Positions 616 to 10,938 of a stretch of 64,000 nt of DNA are shown one piece after another (the stretch's first letter is position 1; every line of letters begins with the position of its first letter). The DNA is from Bacteroidota bacterium (GTDB lineage Bacteria > Bacteroidota > Bacteroidia > Chitinophagales > Saprospiraceae): the NCBI GenBank assembly GCA_024642665.1, contig JAHEAR010000004.1, positions 80,554 to 144,553 of the forward strand, written 5' to 3'. The notes under the pieces are model-generated. The model was not told the DNA's origin. It did not search any database and saw only the letters and a program-made list of their open reading frames with translations. The position numbers were made by a program, and so were the translations under genes.

Positions 616-1347
616 ATGTACCTCTGCATTGACATCGGCAACTCCAGAACAAAAGCTTCGGTTTACAATCAAACCGGTGAAGTGATGGAGACGATTGTCT
701 TCGAAGGAAATTCTGTTGAGCCTGTTCAGGCACTCAATCAACGGCATCCCTCAGCGCATGTAATCGTTGCTGCTACCGCAGATCGCTTGTGGGAATTATC
801 ATCATTGCAATGTGAAGGAAAAAATATTTCGCTTTCAGCCACCACATCACTTCCTATCGAAATCGTTTATGCAACACCACACACCTTGGGGGAAGACAGA
901 ATCGCCGGAGCTTGTGGAGCAAAAGCCCTTTACCCAAATAAAAATTGTCTGATCGTCAGTGCGGGGACGTGTATGACGATCGATCTATTGACCAGTGCCG
1001 GAATATATCTCGGTGGAAATATTTCTCCCGGTATGGACATGCGGCTTCGGGCTATGCATGATTATACTGCCAAACTTCCCCTGGCCGAACTCGGCTGGCC
1101 ACGACTTCCTTTTGGGGATTCAACCCTCCATGCCTTGCAGAATGGGGCTTGCCTTGGGATGGTCATGGAAATTGAAGGAATGTTAAATAGAGCCAAAAAT
1201 GCGCTGGGAGACGTTTTTGTCGTTATGACCGGAGGAAATGCAGCTTTCTTGGCTGATCGCTTAGAAAGTCAGATATTTGTCGCACCCGAACTGGTCACAC
1301 AAGGCCTTTTCCAAATATTAGAATTTAATGTCAAGAATTATAAGTAA
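616..1347 (+). CDS. coaX: Type III pantothenate kinase
   Basis: Phosphorylates pantothenate, the first step of coenzyme A synthesis, in the cytosol. The 243-residue length is normal for CoaX. The N-terminal phosphate loop reads CIDIGNSRTK with Asp6. GEDR at residues 92-95 matches the family GxDR motif, whose Asp (here 94) is taken as the catalytic base. SAGTCMTID around 115-123 and GGNISPGM around 133-140 are the other ASKHA-fold signatures. ATG start; no clear promoter box was found. The next gene starts 20 bp before its stop, so the two are probably co-transcribed and translationally coupled. Confidence 0.95.
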   Translation: MYLCIDIGNSRTKASVYNQTGEVMETIVFEGNSVEPVQALNQRHPSAHVIVAATADRLWELSSLQCEGKNISLSATTSLPIEIVYATPHTLGEDRIAGACGAKALYPNKNCLIVSAGTCMTIDLLTSAGIYLGGNISPGMDMRLRAMHDYTAKLPLAELGWPRLPFGDSTLHALQNGACLGMVMEIEGMLNRAKNALGDVFVVMTGGNAAFLADRLESQIFVAPELVTQGLFQILEFNVKNYK

Positions 1348-2662
1348 GTCCCTGTTAATCAGTTTATTGGTTACGATCACTACCACTTTGGCCCTAGGTC
1401 AGGCTAAAGACAATTCCCCTTTTGCCCAATTTGGTTTGGGTGAATTTATCAACAGTGATATGTCCAGTTCACACTCCATGGGCGGTCTGAGCGCTGTTTA
1501 TCATGATTTTTTTGAAGCCAATCTGGAGAATCCGGCCTCTTTAGGCTTTCTACAATACACAAGCCTGCAATTCGGCATCACCGCCAAACGATCTTCGTAT
1601 AACCTCAATGACGCCAAACAGACGATCTGGAATGGAAATGCCAATCATGTTAGCCTGAATATACCCATTATCAATCCGCTCAACCAGGCGCTTGAGCGCA
1701 AAGAGACCGATTTCGCCTGGGGGATGAGTTTTGGTGTCAGACCTTATGCACAAGCCGGTTACAATATCATCGTCAATGAAACATTGGATTCGCTTGGTGA
1801 TGTACAAAGAAACTTTACCGGCTCCGGTGGCTTGTACAATTTAAACTGGGGAAATGGATTTAAATATAAAAATCTCGCAGCGGGAATCAATTTAGGATAC
1901 TTGCGTGGTCAGCAATCCTATGGCGAACAAACCTACTTTCTTGATCTGAGCAATGCATATGATGATTTTTTTAATTCCAATTCAGCCTATAAAGGTTTTC
2001 AATATAGGTTTGGTTTGATGTATGAGCAACCACTTGACCTGAAAGCTTCGAGAGAAACAGATGATAAGCCCTCCAGGCTACTCTCTGTCGGTGCTTATTT
2101 AAGTGGTCAAACCAATTTTACGACCTCCTCCGATTTATCCTTGTTGGCCGTCAACGCGTTGACAGGAGATATTGATACTGCTTTTACGGCGGAAGGGATT
2201 AAGGCAGATGGAGTTATACCTAAAGCATTTGGGATAGGATTTTTATATCATCATGCCGGTGACTTTAGAGCAGGGGTCAGTTTTGATGCTTCGCCATGGA
2301 GTCAGTATAAAAATCCGGCGAATCCGGCCACGATGATGAATGCCTGGAAACTTAGTTTCGGAGGTGCCTGGATACCGGATGCGGAGTCCATCACTTCGTA
2401 TTTCAAGCGTGTTGAGTACCGTGCAGGTTTTTATACGTTAAAAGATCCTCGTGTGATTGAGGGTCACCAGGTGGCTGAAAGGGCATTTACATTTGGTGCT
2501 TCGTTTCCTTTTATTCTTCAGCGTGCGATCACGTGGGTGCAGGTTGGGTTTGATGTAGGAAAACGTACCGGTGGTCCAAACTTAACCGATAATTTTGTCA
2601 GAGGAAATGTTAGCTTTATCTTTAACGATAACGCCTGGTTTATCAAAGGAAAATACGATTAA
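1328..2662 (+). CDS. Putative outer-membrane beta-barrel protein
   Basis: A 444-residue protein with a signal peptide (residues 1 to about 24, ending LALGQ) followed by alternating aromatic/polar strands. GGLSAVYHDFFEANLENPASLGF resembles the N-terminus of FadL/PorV-like barrels, where asparagine-proline turns are common. The C-terminus (FNDNAWFIKGKYD) looks like a closing strand. The specific function is not recognised. The start overlaps coaX by 20 bp and a terminator follows at 2695-2729, so this is the last gene of a two-gene unit. Homologues of this kind often sit next to coaX in the phylum, but the link is unexplained. Confidence 0.75.
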   Translation: MSRIISKSLLISLLVTITTTLALGQAKDNSPFAQFGLGEFINSDMSSSHSMGGLSAVYHDFFEANLENPASLGFLQYTSLQFGITAKRSSYNLNDAKQTIWNGNANHVSLNIPIINPLNQALERKETDFAWGMSFGVRPYAQAGYNIIVNETLDSLGDVQRNFTGSGGLYNLNWGNGFKYKNLAAGINLGYLRGQQSYGEQTYFLDLSNAYDDFFNSNSAYKGFQYRFGLMYEQPLDLKASRETDDKPSRLLSVGAYLSGQTNFTTSSDLSLLAVNALTGDIDTAFTAEGIKADGVIPKAFGIGFLYHHAGDFRAGVSFDASPWSQYKNPANPATMMNAWKLSFGGAWIPDAESITSYFKRVEYRAGFYTLKDPRVIEGHQVAERAFTFGASFPFILQRAITWVQVGFDVGKRTGGPNLTDNFVRGNVSFIFNDNAWFIKGKYD

Positions 2663-2694
2663 GAAAATTTCCATATTATTTTAGTATGAAAGTG

Positions 2695-2729
2695 AGGTGT
2701 CTTTTTTGAAAGGGAAGGCACCTTTTTTT
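2695..2729 (+). terminator. Intrinsic terminator after the coaX unit
   Basis: Arms AGGTGTC (2695-2701) and GGCACCT (2717-2723) pair over 7 bp with one G-T pair and are followed by a run of seven T. The hairpin lies 33 bases past the stop codon of the outer-membrane protein gene. Confidence 0.75.
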
Positions 2730-2733
2730 ATGC

Positions 2734-3046
2734 CCCCAGGCTAAAGCCCGGGGCAATTGAGAGCCTTGAGAAGACAAACCGAAACTCAGGGAAGAAAAAA
2801 ACTGCGACACAGAATAGCTATTCTGTAACCCCGGACTTCAGTCCGGGTAAGAAAGAAACTAAGCTCAGTGAAGGAAAAAAATCTATAACCAGGAACACCC
2901 ACTCAATTACCCCGCGCTTCAGCTCGGGGATGAAAACCAAAACCTCTTAAAGATATCTCAAAACTACCTCTGGCTTTAGCCCAAAGAACACAAAAAACCA
3001 ATGTTCTTGGATGAGCCTCTTAATTACCCCGTGCTTTAGCTCGGGG
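2734..3046. repeat. Cluster of five REP-like palindromes
   Basis: Five related hairpins lie at 2734-2753, 2830-2847, 2910-2929, 2972-2981 (core only) and 3027-3046. Each has outer C3-5/G3-5 arms and a core such as GGCT-tt-AGCC or GGACT-tc-AGTCC. The copy at 2830 is a perfect 8-bp stem; those at 2734, 2910 and 3027 carry one mismatch at the same place. They are separated by A-rich linkers with a repeated CTCAG/GGAAGAA flavour. The form is like repetitive extragenic palindromes mobilised by RAYT/IS200-type enzymes, but no such enzyme is in the window. Confidence 0.75.
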
Positions 3047-3078
3047 AAGAAGAAGCTTAGTCCTGGGGAAGAAGGAAC

Positions 3079-5430
3079 TCAGTCCGAGGCCAACACCTCA
3101 AAACTAGTAGTCACCATCGACCCATATTCATCCTGCAACACCAACTGATGCTTACCGGGAGAAGGATCGATTTCCATGCGATGAAATTCTTTGGTCTTTC
3201 CAAGATATTGCTTGTCCATATGCCAGTACACTTGCGCCGTATCCGATCGATGCACCGCAGAGAATACGGCTCTTGATTTTTTCTTGTCCCACTCATACGG
3301 CACATAAATCTTTGACCCATTCCGCGGATAGATAATCGCAATGTCATCAGAAGGTTTGAAGTTGTCCGCACAATCCGGATGCAAGGGTGGCACCACTTCG
3401 TAAGATGGATTGTAACGCTTGTAATAGTTTTCCGCCAGTGTCGGAACAACAAAATAATTTTTTAAAACGGTCTGTTCATTTTTGCAAACAGGATCATACC
3501 TGAACGCTCTCAAGTCATCTGTATACACAGCCGTATGATAACTACACAAAGCGGTGGATTGATTTCCGGCTACACAATATGCCGTGTCAATAATAGTACA
3601 TGAAGTTGATGCAAGCCAACCACTTTCCGCACACACACGCTTCTGCACAAGTGCATCATACGGCGGCGACCACCAGGGACTGTCATCCTCCAGCATCCGC
3701 AAGACATCAAACATCACAGGCGCAGCCGCCTGCAATCCAATCACGCCCGGCCTACCCTCTCCATCCGCATTTCCAATCCAAACACCAATCGTATATTTTG
3801 GCGTCACACCCACTGCCCATGCATCACGATAACCAAAACTTGTCCCGGTCTTCCACGCCACCGGATGACTACTGTTGTAGGTCTCCCAATTTCCTTCCTG
3901 ATCCGGTCGACGCAAAGTCTTCATCGCTTCAAAGGTCAACCAGATAGCGCCGGCATTCCAAACAGGCGCTTCTTCCGTGAACACTATATTTTCTTTCTTG
4001 CTTTTTTCACTTTTAAAAAGTACAGGCGCATGGATATCTGCAACATCATACCGATGATCATAACGATACACATGATGCAATATGCGACCCATACTCGCAT
4101 ACGCACCACAGATATCCCAAAGCGTAACTTCTGCCCCACCAAGCACCAATGGTAATCCATAGTAATCCGGACTATAATGTAGTGTCGTCAATCCCGCTTC
4201 CACTAATTTTTCCTTAAACGGAAGTATGCCATACTGCTGCAACAATCGAACGGCAGGTACATTGAGACTCATCGCAAGTGCTTCATCCGCAGGGACCATG
4301 CCCATATATTCCAGCGTGAAATTCAAAGGCTGATAGCCTCGGATATTTGTAGGAATATCTTCCAGGATTCCTTTAGGCGTGATCAATCCATCCTGCAAAG
4401 CAGCACAGTATAAAAACGGTTTGAGGATGCTTCCCGAACTACGCTCAGACTGAATGATGTCGACATCATTCTGATGATCTTTTTGTTCCTGTCCCACATT
4501 ACCAATATACGCGCGCACCTCCCCACTTTCTGTTTCCATCACCAGTAGCGCAGCATTATACACGCCATTTAAATGCATGATATCCGCATGTCGCTTAAGC
4601 AGTTCCGAAAGTCGATTTTGCAAATCAAAATCAATTGTGCTTTTTAAAATCTTTCCGGAATTCGTATAGTGCCCAAGCACATGTGGTGCAATATTGGGTA
4701 ATGGCTGAGGCGCAAAAGGAAGAGGCTCCTGCTTAGCCAGCGAAGCTTCCATTTCATCAAGGTGACCTTCTTCAAATAATTTATCGATCAGTCGGTTTCG
4801 CTTAAATAATAATGCTGCCTGATTTCTTCCGGGATGGATAAGTGCGGGAGCATTGGGCAATACCGCCAGCGTCGCTGATTCACCCCACGACAACTGATCC
4901 GGCGTCTTGTGATAATACCGCCAGCTGGCCGCCGCCAGACCTACAACGTTACCACCAAAAGGAGCATGGGCTGCATACATTCTAAGTATCTCTTTTTTAG
5001 AATAGCGAACTTCCGCACGCACCGCCCACAACATTTCAATAGCTTTCTGCCATAGATTTCGACTTTCATTTCCACGAGCCATACGCATGGTCTGCATCGT
5101 CAGCGTGCTGCCCCCACTGACTACTGATTTCGATTTAAGATTGTCTCTCATCGCTCTGCCAAAAGCAAGCAGATCAACACCTGGGTGATGATAAAATCGC
5201 TTATCCTCAAAAGCAATAATCGCTTTCTCAAAAGTCTCCGGCACGTTCAAATCATCTCCGGGAAATCGCCACTGTTCATCACCCGCAAGACGCGCACCCA
5301 TCAACTGACCATGCTGATCCAGAAGGACTGTACTATAGGAAGCATCAAATAAAGGATCAGGCAAACAAAACCACCAGGCTGCCAATGGCAACAATAAGAG
5401 TAGTAAATATTTTCGGCGATCCTTTAGCAT
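3079..5430 (-). CDS. pbpC: Penicillin-binding protein 1C
   Basis: A bifunctional class A peptidoglycan synthase anchored in the inner membrane by residues about 7-22. The transglycosylase domain has the motif EDKRFYHHPG, with the catalytic Glu at 75. The transpeptidase domain shows SxxK in GSILKPF, SLN, and KTG in WKTGTSFGYRDAW. The last 90 or so residues form the C-terminal domain typical of PBP1C. The 783-residue length is normal. The gene starts 21 bp after the alpha-2-macroglobulin stop, the arrangement seen in many Gram-negative genomes where the two are thought to repair walls breached by attackers. The last codons lie in sequence resembling the adjacent repeat linkers. Confidence 0.95.
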   Translation of the reverse strand: MLKDRRKYLLLLLLPLAAWWFCLPDPLFDASYSTVLLDQHGQLMGARLAGDEQWRFPGDDLNVPETFEKAIIAFEDKRFYHHPGVDLLAFGRAMRDNLKSKSVVSGGSTLTMQTMRMARGNESRNLWQKAIEMLWAVRAEVRYSKKEILRMYAAHAPFGGNVVGLAAASWRYYHKTPDQLSWGESATLAVLPNAPALIHPGRNQAALLFKRNRLIDKLFEEGHLDEMEASLAKQEPLPFAPQPLPNIAPHVLGHYTNSGKILKSTIDFDLQNRLSELLKRHADIMHLNGVYNAALLVMETESGEVRAYIGNVGQEQKDHQNDVDIIQSERSSGSILKPFLYCAALQDGLITPKGILEDIPTNIRGYQPLNFTLEYMGMVPADEALAMSLNVPAVRLLQQYGILPFKEKLVEAGLTTLHYSPDYYGLPLVLGGAEVTLWDICGAYASMGRILHHVYRYDHRYDVADIHAPVLFKSEKSKKENIVFTEEAPVWNAGAIWLTFEAMKTLRRPDQEGNWETYNSSHPVAWKTGTSFGYRDAWAVGVTPKYTIGVWIGNADGEGRPGVIGLQAAAPVMFDVLRMLEDDSPWWSPPYDALVQKRVCAESGWLASTSCTIIDTAYCVAGNQSTALCSYHTAVYTDDLRAFRYDPVCKNEQTVLKNYFVVPTLAENYYKRYNPSYEVVPPLHPDCADNFKPSDDIAIIYPRNGSKIYVPYEWDKKKSRAVFSAVHRSDTAQVYWHMDKQYLGKTKEFHRMEIDPSPGKHQLVLQDEYGSMVTTSFEVLASD

Positions 5431-8400: not shown

Positions 8401-10938
8401 TTTATTCAAAACCATTTCTTCATACCCCCATCGATTTTTTGGAATCGAAACACCTGCATAGTGATCGTAAGGATTATAGGTGGTCGAATGATTGTCCGTG
8501 CTGAAATCGCCGCCTGTTTCGAAGACGCGTGTTTTGATGGACATCGTTAATTGACCTTCCGGAAGAAAATCTTCAATAGATGGTATTTCCACTTTCGCAT
8601 GGCCATTGGCATCAAGTGTCTTATCAAAAATCGTACTGACGGTATTAGGTGTTTTACGTGCCGGATCTGAAAACCTGAAAGCGCGGAAACCTTCCGGAGA
8701 AAATTCTTTTGGTTTAAATTGTGCTTCAACCACTGCTTTAAGATTTGCCGCTGGTGCTCCATATAACCACTTTGACGATAAGTCAAACGTTTGTCCGGAT
8801 TGGCTTCCCAAAATCGATTCAGGCAATTCCGCGTCTACACTTAATCGATTAGGTTTTATCGTTTCAATTTTAAGCGCTTTGGAAAAAACAGCATCTCCCA
8901 CTTCCACTTTAGCCATCCAATTTCCTGTCGGATCAGTAGTCTCTGTTTTAAAAGCAAGATTATAAATTCCCCCAACTGAAATCGGACTGGTGATCTCTAC
9001 TTTTTTCTGCCCCAATGGATTGGTCACCGTCAGTCTGACCGGATGCCGTGAATCAATATGACCTTCCGGATCCCACAATATAAAATTCAAATAGATGCTA
9101 TCCCCCGGTCGCCAGACACTACGCTCTCCATAAATATATCCGCGTAGTCCTTCCTGATAGCCGGTTCCTCCGGTATTAAATTCACTCATCGATAAGGCTA
9201 AGCCATCCCCTAATCGCAAATATCCTTTTTGACGATCAGCACTTGCAACTACGAAAAAAGCTTGACGAGGCGTTTCAAAAACTACGCTTCCATCTCCGGC
9301 AGTTTTACCGGTACCCATGGATTGTTGTTGGAAATCAAACACTTCAATTTGAACGCCTGTCATTGGGGATGCGGTAGTGATTGAACTGGCAAATACCCAG
9401 GTTTTACCCTTTGCATCTCTTTTGGCTGTCAGGCCAATATCGGATGCCAACAGATTGCGACTTATAAATCGACCTTCGTTATAAAAAGCCGGAAAGCAAG
9501 GATCATCCGTTTGACTCCAGTCGAAACCCGGATAACTATAATCATAGGTCCAGAAAGTTTGCACCTCACCAAAAGGAATAGCTTCGGCAGGCTTAGCAGA
9601 TTCCGTATAGCAATCGAGATATGTATCCGTGCCTCTAAAACCAACCCTTACCTGATAAATACTCCCCGGAGATAACTTCACCAATGGTCCCAGATCTAGC
9701 GCATAACGCGTCCAGGAAAATTGATTGTCTGCATCTGATAATTCTTTCAGATCTACTTCCTTTTGCAAAATAATGCGTCCGACCGGTTCAAGATTCCATG
9801 GATCTTCAAGATCATTGTATTGCAGATACTGAAGAATATTGTTTTCAAAAATCTGAAGCACTTCAACTTGTACACGTTTAAGATTGATGGCTTCAAAAGG
9901 AAAAATAATGTCTCTATTGCCGGGCGTAATCACACCTGATCCAACCAGCTTTAGTGCAGGGTTTGGATCGTCAAGAGAAACATCAACCTGTACCATCGCA
10001 CCAAGCTCCTTATCTAAGGAAGAAGTAATGACTGAATTTAAATGAATGGACAATTCACCGGACAATGCCTTATCCGGATAAATGGACAGCACATGATCTT
10101 TCTTTTTAAGGGTGAACCCATCTGTCCGATCATTGATCGAGACAAGTCCTGCCAGTTCCTGATTGGCCTTTAGCTTTTGCGAAAAGTAAATATTTATTTT
10201 TCTTTCACCATCAGTACCGGGTTCAAAGGAAAGCACACTAAATTCATCAGCTCTCGGTATACGAATGGCTCTCTCTCCGGATTCTTTCGCACCAATAGCG
10301 CGTCCATCCCAAATAAATTTTAACGTTGCTTCCGGTGCTATGTTGGCAATGACAAATTCGTGAGAGGTTCCGGAAGGATTATGCTTCCATTGCATTTCAT
10401 CCATTTTTCCGGTAGATTTTTTACTCAGTATTTGTTCAATTTTTTGCGCATCCACACCGGACGAAGTAGAAAGCATACCACGAAGCGCATAGACCGGATT
10501 GTCTCCATCAAACTCTGGCACAAGTGGCTCAAAGTAAACTGTCATCCGAACCGGCTTTACGGTAAATTCAAAAACGACGCTCTTCATGCCGGGTTCCAGA
10601 TCGGAAATAACTTTATCCAGATTAACCTTGAGTTGATAAGCTGTTCCTGGAGTCCATTCTTTCGTAGGGCGAAAAGCCAGCGTCCTTGCATCTTCCCATT
10701 GAAAATTTCCATCAATCGCAGGATTAAAAGAGAAAATCTCTTTTGTCAGGCTGGTATCCACCGGCACGGCAAATCGTATTCTGACCGGGTCATTAGATTC
10801 AATGGCTGAAGGCACCCGAGCCGCGATATATCTTCCGATTTCTTCGGAGGTAAGGATGTTTGGGGCAAAATCCTTTTTACATGCGAAAAAGGTTAAAAAA
10901 ATGGCCAGAAAGATAAAAGGTTGGAATGGGCGCTTCAT
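5452..10938 (-). CDS. Alpha-2-macroglobulin family lipoprotein
   Basis: A large (1828-residue) bacterial macroglobulin. A lipoprotein signal peptide ends LTFFAC with the lipidated Cys at 20, so it should be membrane-anchored in the periplasm or at the surface. Successive beta-sandwich (MG) domains lead to the thioester motif YGCLEQ with Cys1375 and Gln1378, followed by the alpha-helical thioester domain and a C-terminal receptor-like domain. Family members trap proteases through the thioester. It is first in an operon with pbpC. The intact CLEQ indicates the active, thioester-bearing class rather than the class that has lost it. Confidence 0.95.
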   Translation of the reverse strand: MKRPFQPFIFLAIFLTFFACKKDFAPNILTSEEIGRYIAARVPSAIESNDPVRIRFAVPVDTSLTKEIFSFNPAIDGNFQWEDARTLAFRPTKEWTPGTAYQLKVNLDKVISDLEPGMKSVVFEFTVKPVRMTVYFEPLVPEFDGDNPVYALRGMLSTSSGVDAQKIEQILSKKSTGKMDEMQWKHNPSGTSHEFVIANIAPEATLKFIWDGRAIGAKESGERAIRIPRADEFSVLSFEPGTDGERKINIYFSQKLKANQELAGLVSINDRTDGFTLKKKDHVLSIYPDKALSGELSIHLNSVITSSLDKELGAMVQVDVSLDDPNPALKLVGSGVITPGNRDIIFPFEAINLKRVQVEVLQIFENNILQYLQYNDLEDPWNLEPVGRIILQKEVDLKELSDADNQFSWTRYALDLGPLVKLSPGSIYQVRVGFRGTDTYLDCYTESAKPAEAIPFGEVQTFWTYDYSYPGFDWSQTDDPCFPAFYNEGRFISRNLLASDIGLTAKRDAKGKTWVFASSITTASPMTGVQIEVFDFQQQSMGTGKTAGDGSVVFETPRQAFFVVASADRQKGYLRLGDGLALSMSEFNTGGTGYQEGLRGYIYGERSVWRPGDSIYLNFILWDPEGHIDSRHPVRLTVTNPLGQKKVEITSPISVGGIYNLAFKTETTDPTGNWMAKVEVGDAVFSKALKIETIKPNRLSVDAELPESILGSQSGQTFDLSSKWLYGAPAANLKAVVEAQFKPKEFSPEGFRAFRFSDPARKTPNTVSTIFDKTLDANGHAKVEIPSIEDFLPEGQLTMSIKTRVFETGGDFSTDNHSTTYNPYDHYAGVSIPKNRWGYEEMVLNKDNKIQLASVTTEGKGTAGRTLTVGIYRANWRWWWDRSNSDITQYNSALHLGAIYADTLVTGSGGLTSYTITPQSYGSYMIRVCDTESGHCSGQFYYAGSWGDPSEDNDAASRLTFTADKERYEVGDDIKLNIPSAPGSRLLLTIEKNNRVISTKWYDAKDDHTQITLKATAEMMPNVYTYVSHIQPFEHSANDMPLRMYGVLPIMVADPATMLHPEIKIADVLEPDKSFTVTVSEKDDQPMAYTIAIVDEGLLGLTRFKSPDPWQHFHQQEALGVQTWDMFDQVLGGYGGLIDRLLSLGGDGAGNLVDAPQAERFKPVVIHLGPFYLEPGKEKTHTLTMPNYVGAVRTMVVASDRKRWGSTDKTSTVKSDLMIQPTLPRVVSPGETVTLPVHVHAMGENIRSAEVRVTTNDMATVEGSSSQSIQFANQGEKTVYFNLRIPERPGILKVEVIATSGKSKTSQQLELDVRIPNPPLTNVISASIAAGQTWNNTMVLPGMDGTNDATIELSIMPAINLQKRLKYLIRYPYGCLEQTVSSVFPQLYLSALTDLTPQQEREVRINIQRGIDRIRNFNLPSGGFTYWPGESYKESWTNSYAGHFLIEASKAGYTVDRSMMNAWRSAQNKDAQAYRTGSSYRSDLIQAYRLYTLALDGQPAWGMMNKLRTQQNLDPAAAWLLATTYALGNRKDVSAEIVAQLTTKVEPYQELSVTFGSELRDKAIILEAFLSMDKMQDAVTISNTIAESLSGEYWYSTQSTSFALLTMGKMASHFSGKEIKARIEQSGSTPLEIASTKGMVTRVLDVNAKQVTVKNNSSDPLNVRLMTTGKPLRGVSSEVQNNLKLSVKYMDKTGREINVSKLNQGQDFIVKVTVTNPGTYTTSLDQLALAYLFPSGWELANQRMDNFAGRFENSSIQYQDIRDDRVNTFFNMGRGDWTYHFVMTATYAGKYWLPDIMCDAMYSHKVQARMPGRWVEVVPVTSGVVSNE

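Follow-up and report, generated by a model that had tools for sequence, protein, structure and literature searches.

A small array of REP-like hairpins beside pbpC in a Saprospiraceae genome and its probable link with subclass 1.2 Y1 transposases

Introduction

What is the cluster of short palindromes that fills the gap between a gene for a 444-aa protein and pbpC in a draft genome of the Saprospiraceae, where do its relatives occur, and has it shaped the end of pbpC? An initial annotation of the window (the whole stretch of 64,000 nucleotides analysed here) read the palindromes as REP-like and suggested that a repeat copy had replaced the original 3' end of pbpC. The array by itself is ordinary. 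The new part is the pairing of hairpins carrying a TTYA loop with a clade of Y1 transposases described as REP-less, for which we found no report among the open-licence papers listed by searches on REPs or RAYTs combined with Bacteroidetes, Saprospiraceae or subclass 1.2.

Results and Discussion

Anatomy of the array

The array occupies positions 2734-3046 and comprises four clean palindromes and one decayed copy (Table 1). It is extragenic, lying between two convergent ORFs, with its last linker touching the pbpC stop. The initial annotation had described five related palindromes in 313 bases, all with a mismatch at the same position. Their place and number hold, although one of them, E4, is decayed. 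The shared mismatch, at the sixth pair from the outside, is found in E3 and E5 only, whereas E1 has a G-T at the fifth pair and the sole mismatch of E2 is in the outermost pair. The linker CTCAGTCCGAGG is present as described there.

Table 1. Features of the array and of its two neighbouring genes (window positions).
Feature	Position	Strand	Remarks
Gene for a 444-aa protein (left neighbour)	1328..2662	+	ORF; congener orthologue 76% identical
Intrinsic terminator of the 444-aa gene	2694..2731	+	left border of the array
E1	2734..2753	-	hairpin CCCCGGGCTTTAGCCTGGGG; foot ATTG at 2754-2757
E2	2829..2848	+	hairpin CCCCGGACTTCAGTCCGGGT; foot GTAA
E3	2910..2929	+	hairpin CCCCGCGCTTCAGCTCGGGG; foot ATTA
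E4	2967..2986	+	decayed copy, loop TTTA, 5/8 pairs; read from the sequence by inspection
E5	3027..3046	+	hairpin CCCCGTGCTTTAGCTCGGGG; foot ATTA
22-bp tandem duplication of half-palindrome and linker	3043..3085	+	overlaps the pbpC stop
pbpC (penicillin-binding protein 1C)	3079..5430	-	stop at 3079-3081

The clean copies share the anatomy of a REP-like hairpin, which consists of a foot NTWR, an 8-bp GC-rich stem and a TTYA loop. The feet of E1, E2, E3 and E5 fit NTWR and that of E4 does not; none of the four is the GT[AG]G foot of REP elements. E1 is inverted and E2 to E5 all point one way. As DNA, the four clean copies fold better than their shuffles (z from -2.0 to -3.7), while E4 folds no better than shuffled sequence (z -0.06). 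The pattern CCCCGNNCTTYAGNNCGGGG, with up to three mismatches allowed, gives eight matches in the 64 kb window, corresponding to four places on both strands, all within the array, as compared to a mean of 0.30 and a maximum of 2 in 100 shuffles.

The array copies differ from each other; over 43 nt, identities with the reference copy are 67% and 81%. A tandem-repeat finder reported nothing in the array beyond the 22-bp duplication, whose halves (3043-3063 and 3065-3085) agree at 86%. Spacings near 59 and 58 occur in the series E3-E4-E5, and the alignment of a model built from copies in the congener (see below) runs from E3 into E4. A 59-bp unit common to the congener arrays was nevertheless rejected, the linkers being too diverged to call homology. 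No Rfam identity could be given to the array either, as the two matches at E ≤ 1, to PyrR at 2615-2731 (26.1 versus 54 bits) and to snoZ242 at 2323-2461, are both far below the gathering score and neither covers the array.

The end of pbpC

The proposed replacement of the pbpC 3' end can be judged against the congener G001, the one other genome of the genus compared. Its pbpC orthologue is 79% identical and aligns to the very end, and no array-type repeat occurs in the sequence read beyond its stop. The last nine bases, CGGACTGAG here and CGGAATGAG in the congener, differ by one substitution, with a 3-base gap just before, so that the proteins end in FEVLASD and FEVLAE, respectively. An end without the repeat is thus nearly the same as the end with it, which speaks against the replacement suggested in the initial annotation.

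Two observations would fit such a replacement, namely the overlap of the 22-bp duplication with the pbpC stop and the report that GTAG REPs often supply stop codons (PMC3733652). As a general habit of these repeats, however, the supply of stop codons was rejected, because the 40 copies read in the congener all lie clear of the stops of called ORFs, at a minimum distance of 69 nt. With the congener end aligned up to the stop, we consider it highly improbable that the present 3' end of pbpC derives from a repeat copy. Its stop codon is in all likelihood native, and the resemblance between the stop region and a half-palindrome would be better explained by native sequence or by its outward copying.

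Copies elsewhere in the genome, the genus and the family

The initial annotation took the absence of further copies as grounds to reject its REP-like reading, and this genome comes close to that case. In this genome (a 3.7 Mb draft of 72 contigs, 98% complete), a search with at most one mismatch returned four places, all in the array, and no further TTYA-loop copy was found. A looser pattern matched 14 times in the same genome, including seven times in the array, and its reversed control matched 16 times. When the loop was left unconstrained, a single extra palindrome appeared, at C39:46750, having the stem of E2 and the loop CATT. This genome therefore lacks the dispersed, multicopy character of REP elements, which the congener displays with 41 places matching the exact pattern (26+15). 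There, 43 places are found when the loop is left free, which indicates that the loop belongs to the family and was not made by the search pattern. The REP-like reading thus stands on anatomy and on relatives, namely these 41 places and the hairpins flanking Y1 genes described below, and not on the lone locus in this genome.

E5 has the same sequence as the commonest congener copy. A model of the 40 distinct congener copies matches E5 (8e-9), E3 (4e-8) and E1 (3e-4) in the window, and E2 is not matched by it there. Across the family, 9 of 120 genomes contain an exact match. Among the matches listed in a scan of named genomes, many phyla are represented; a pattern of 20 bases does not by itself prove kinship there. 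Separately, the intergenic DNA at four loci of the congener (L065, L070, L071 and L270) is full of 7-base repeats of the CTCTCCG, ATGCTCT and AGGTCTC types, and contains further palindromes, such as GGTCGCGCTTCAGCGCGTGACC with the loop TTCA.

Of the 40 congener copies, 36 are intergenic and four lie inside short ORFs of 85-125 aa. By a tally made by hand, the intergenic ones are in gaps between convergent (16), co-directional (10) or divergent genes (9), with one undetermined. The share in convergent gaps raises the question of whether the palindromes could be kept as transcription-end or mRNA-stability elements between convergent genes, multiplied by local duplication only, with no transposase. 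The convergent setting of our array, the tandem duplication next to it and the strong structure of the pbpC-strand RNA (exceeding all 100 shuffles, z -4.46) would suit such elements, but dozens of copies are dispersed in the congener, Y1 genes are flanked by hairpins related to these, the left gene ends in a terminator of its own, and the sole terminator-like site of the pbpC strand does not exceed chance expectation (2 sites against 0.9 expected). We regard this explanation as quite unlikely, although a role of the array in mRNA stability or at the transcript end is possible, to judge from predicted structure. As a remnant of REP-like hairpins copied by a transposase, which is the reading we prefer, the array is probably an inert relic in this genome and, if transcribed at all, would form only a structured tail at the 3' end of pbpC.

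Gene order at the joint

The array has a sharp left border at the terminator of the 444-aa gene, which is nearly identical in the congener as far as its T run, where the similarity ends; the right border is the pbpC stop. The 444-aa protein matches no Pfam family at E 0.001. In the congener its gene is on contig C113 and pbpC is on C48. We read 30 pbpC loci, most of them from other genera, with up to 1.5 kb alongside, and the 444-aa gene adjoins pbpC in this genome only, so that the joint filled by the array occurs in no other genome of that set. On either side of the gap at 2662-3079, gene pairs are conserved, as coaX and the 444-aa gene are kept together in the congener, and pbpC is kept with a large alpha-2-macroglobulin-like gene. 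Of the 30 pbpC loci, that of this genome is the only one at which the two pairs meet.

Such a joint, together with the lack of any other TTYA copy in the genome, could mean that the array arrived by a recent rearrangement or from a relative and is not the remnant of a resident family. Yet its copies have diverged from each other to the identities given above and one is decayed, which suggests age; moreover, joints commonly fall between genes, and loci from other genera make up most of the set in which this one is unique. A recent arrival appears doubtful to us, and we retain the remnant of a resident hairpin family as the better account.

Y1 transposase genes and their hairpins

The initial annotation proposed to look for a Y1 transposase (RAYT) gene, and one is indeed present in this genome at C18:9273-9629, with the motif YINNQEEHH. 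The stem of its neighbouring hairpin, however, is not that of the array, and that flank ends with the contig. We did not adopt this gene as the enzyme serving the array because of this other stem and because only one copy of its hairpin was found. The contig ends one base after the hairpin that follows the gene (9719-9745), and looks as if further copies of that hairpin had broken the assembly. More generally, neither this genome nor the congener yielded a cognate Y1 gene for the exact hairpin of the array, the Y1 genes of both being next to other stems. At C34:23657-23830, within a 214-aa frame, this genome also contains a second Y1-like match, which is weak and below the family cut-off; a perfect palindrome of 12 bp precedes it by about 430 bp. 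The congener has a comparable weak match on C64.

Elsewhere in the family, two genomes have a short Y1 gene flanked on either side by the palindrome. The flanking copies share one orientation in G133, whereas those in G018 are inverted and lie within longer inverted repeats, the Y1 gene there being, by eye, seemingly inside an RHS-type gene. We examined 64 Y1 loci, of which 58 have a readable motif; 53 of these 58 carry the signature Y---Q--HH of subclass 1.2. TTYA hairpins are found within 700 bp at 8 of the 53 subclass 1.2 loci (19 of 75 hairpins) and at none of the five other Y1 loci (none of three hairpins). At the pbpC control loci, 5 of 42 hairpins have this loop, a count that includes the array itself. 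In the Y1 tree, six of the eight TTYA-flanked genes fall in one clade of eight (support 100/98), which also includes the Y1 gene of this genome. The TTYA label changes five times on this tree, as compared to 7.7 times when shuffled, with only 3 of 500 shuffles as low.

Prediction on new Y1 loci

A prediction was set beforehand, and it held when the profile of the TTYA clade was then searched against 298 genomes of the order. The new high-scoring loci number 27, being the 30 fetched, from part of the high-scoring rows of the list, minus three seen before; TTYA hairpins occur at 24 of them, and 59 of their 67 hairpins have that loop, for which the chance level is 4 in 256 tetraloops (1.6%). At 20 low-scoring comparators, taken as consecutive rows of the list from 120.9 to 111.2 bits and with genes bounded by the profile match, not by an ORF, TTYA hairpins occur at five loci (8 of 14 hairpins). 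The difference is significant by locus (Fisher p 1e-5) and by hairpin (0.013). The loop is therefore typical of the clade without being private to it.

The three exceptions among the 27 comprise one locus cut by a contig end (L285), one with no hairpin in the span used (L295) and one with only a TTAC hairpin (L273). Fixed coordinates served as bounds for six loci (L283, L285, L294, L295, L297 and L300), at which the pattern used showed no motif; the reading is EH-x-H at L294, L297 and L300, where others have DH-x-H. Hairpins close to E5 are found beside two of the new genes, with TTTACCCCGTGCTTTAGCGCGGGGTAAA on both sides of the Y1 gene at L300 (genome G041) and CCCCGTGCTTTAGCACGGGG beside that at L298 (G262).

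The foot NTWR, taken as the four bases before the stem on the TTYA strand, is present in 52 of 68 distinct hairpins at the new loci against 11 of 68 at the mirrored position, and in 18 of 40 congener copies against 5 of 40, the motif having been read off data that overlap these counts. In 18 distinct 20-mers, the stem columns left free by the search pattern covary, with 11 cells changed on both sides as compared to 3.8 when shuffled (0 of 500 as high). Two covariation measures exceed all 500 shuffles; the other two, pairs in which either partner has changed along with the other (420/500) and pair types (189/500), do not.

Proposed origin of the array

We consider it probable that the array represents a small and decayed group of REP-like non-autonomous hairpins, once copied by an HuH Y1 transposase bearing the signature Y---Q--HH. 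Such an enzyme would recognize, on one strand, a GC-rich hairpin with loop TTYA and the four-base foot NTWR immediately 5' to it, and would cut and rejoin there, leaving copies in intergenic gaps; local arrays could then arise by slippage or repeated insertion. It is from anatomy and gene association that we infer this recognition, cutting and copying. The reading is weakened by the fit of NTWR to fewer than half of the congener copies and by the presence of TTYA hairpins beside low-scoring Y1 genes and among those of the pbpC control loci as well, and also by the lack of a cognate Y1 gene for the exact hairpin in this genome or the congener and by the palindrome with the stem of E2 having the loop CATT.

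It also seems reasonably likely that these hairpins form a separate REP class across the bacterial order, in which subclass 1.2 HuH transposases each keep a private hairpin set; stems would vary, while the TTYA loop and NTWR foot would be held in one large clade, and the array of the window would be a fossil set in a genome that lost the rest. Intergenic hairpins that were unexplained may thereby be tied to a specific group of single-strand DNA transposases, with a simple candidate recognition rule (foot NTWR, loop TTYA, stem free).

Comparison with known REP systems

The GTAG palindromes and REPtrons with TnpA-REP (RAYT) (PMC3733652, PMC6006769, PMC8266576) resemble our array and its relatives in being short, GC-rich and mostly intergenic hairpins with a four-base foot on one strand, related copies of which flank a single Y1 transposase gene. 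They differ in the foot, which is GT[AG]G there and NTWR here, and in the transposase, of class 2 there and of subclass 1.2 here; the single locus in this genome is a further difference. From BIMEs, whose units alternate in orientation, our array differs in having four units one way and one inverted; BIMEs are alike in gathering several REP-like units in one intergenic cluster (PMC2817692). The closest parallel in the loop is with Marinomonas REPtron Mb (group 3 TnpA-REP), whose TnpA requires T-T-N-A (PMC8266576), and TTYA falls inside this rule. The stem there is 5 bp long, two bases from a GTAG foot, and the enzyme is of another class. By analogy, this suggests that the Marinomonas loop rule may be common to a distant branch of the Y1 family.

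Repeated hairpins around subclass 1.2 genes

The linked genes agree with the TnpA-Y1 subclass 1.2 of PMC6006769 in the Y---Q--HH signature, in the short protein and in having Bacteroidetes among the hosts. In that paper, the subclass is listed with REP 'no' and described without REPs, whereas here repeated similar hairpins with any loop accompany 25 of the 53 subclass 1.2 loci, 15 of them on both sides. None was found at 29 pbpC control loci, a weak control because pbpC flanks are mostly coding, and one from which the array locus itself was left out. The repeated hairpins beside subclass 1.2 genes contradict the 'no' entry, at least in this family, and the pattern extends beyond the TTYA hairpins. 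At four family Y1 loci (L214, L240, L250 and L251), each subclass 1.2 gene is surrounded by 6 to 9 copies of a hairpin of its own, whose loop is not TTYA but, for example, CTAC, TAAC, TGTA or CAAG; private hairpin sets thus seem common beyond the TTYA group.
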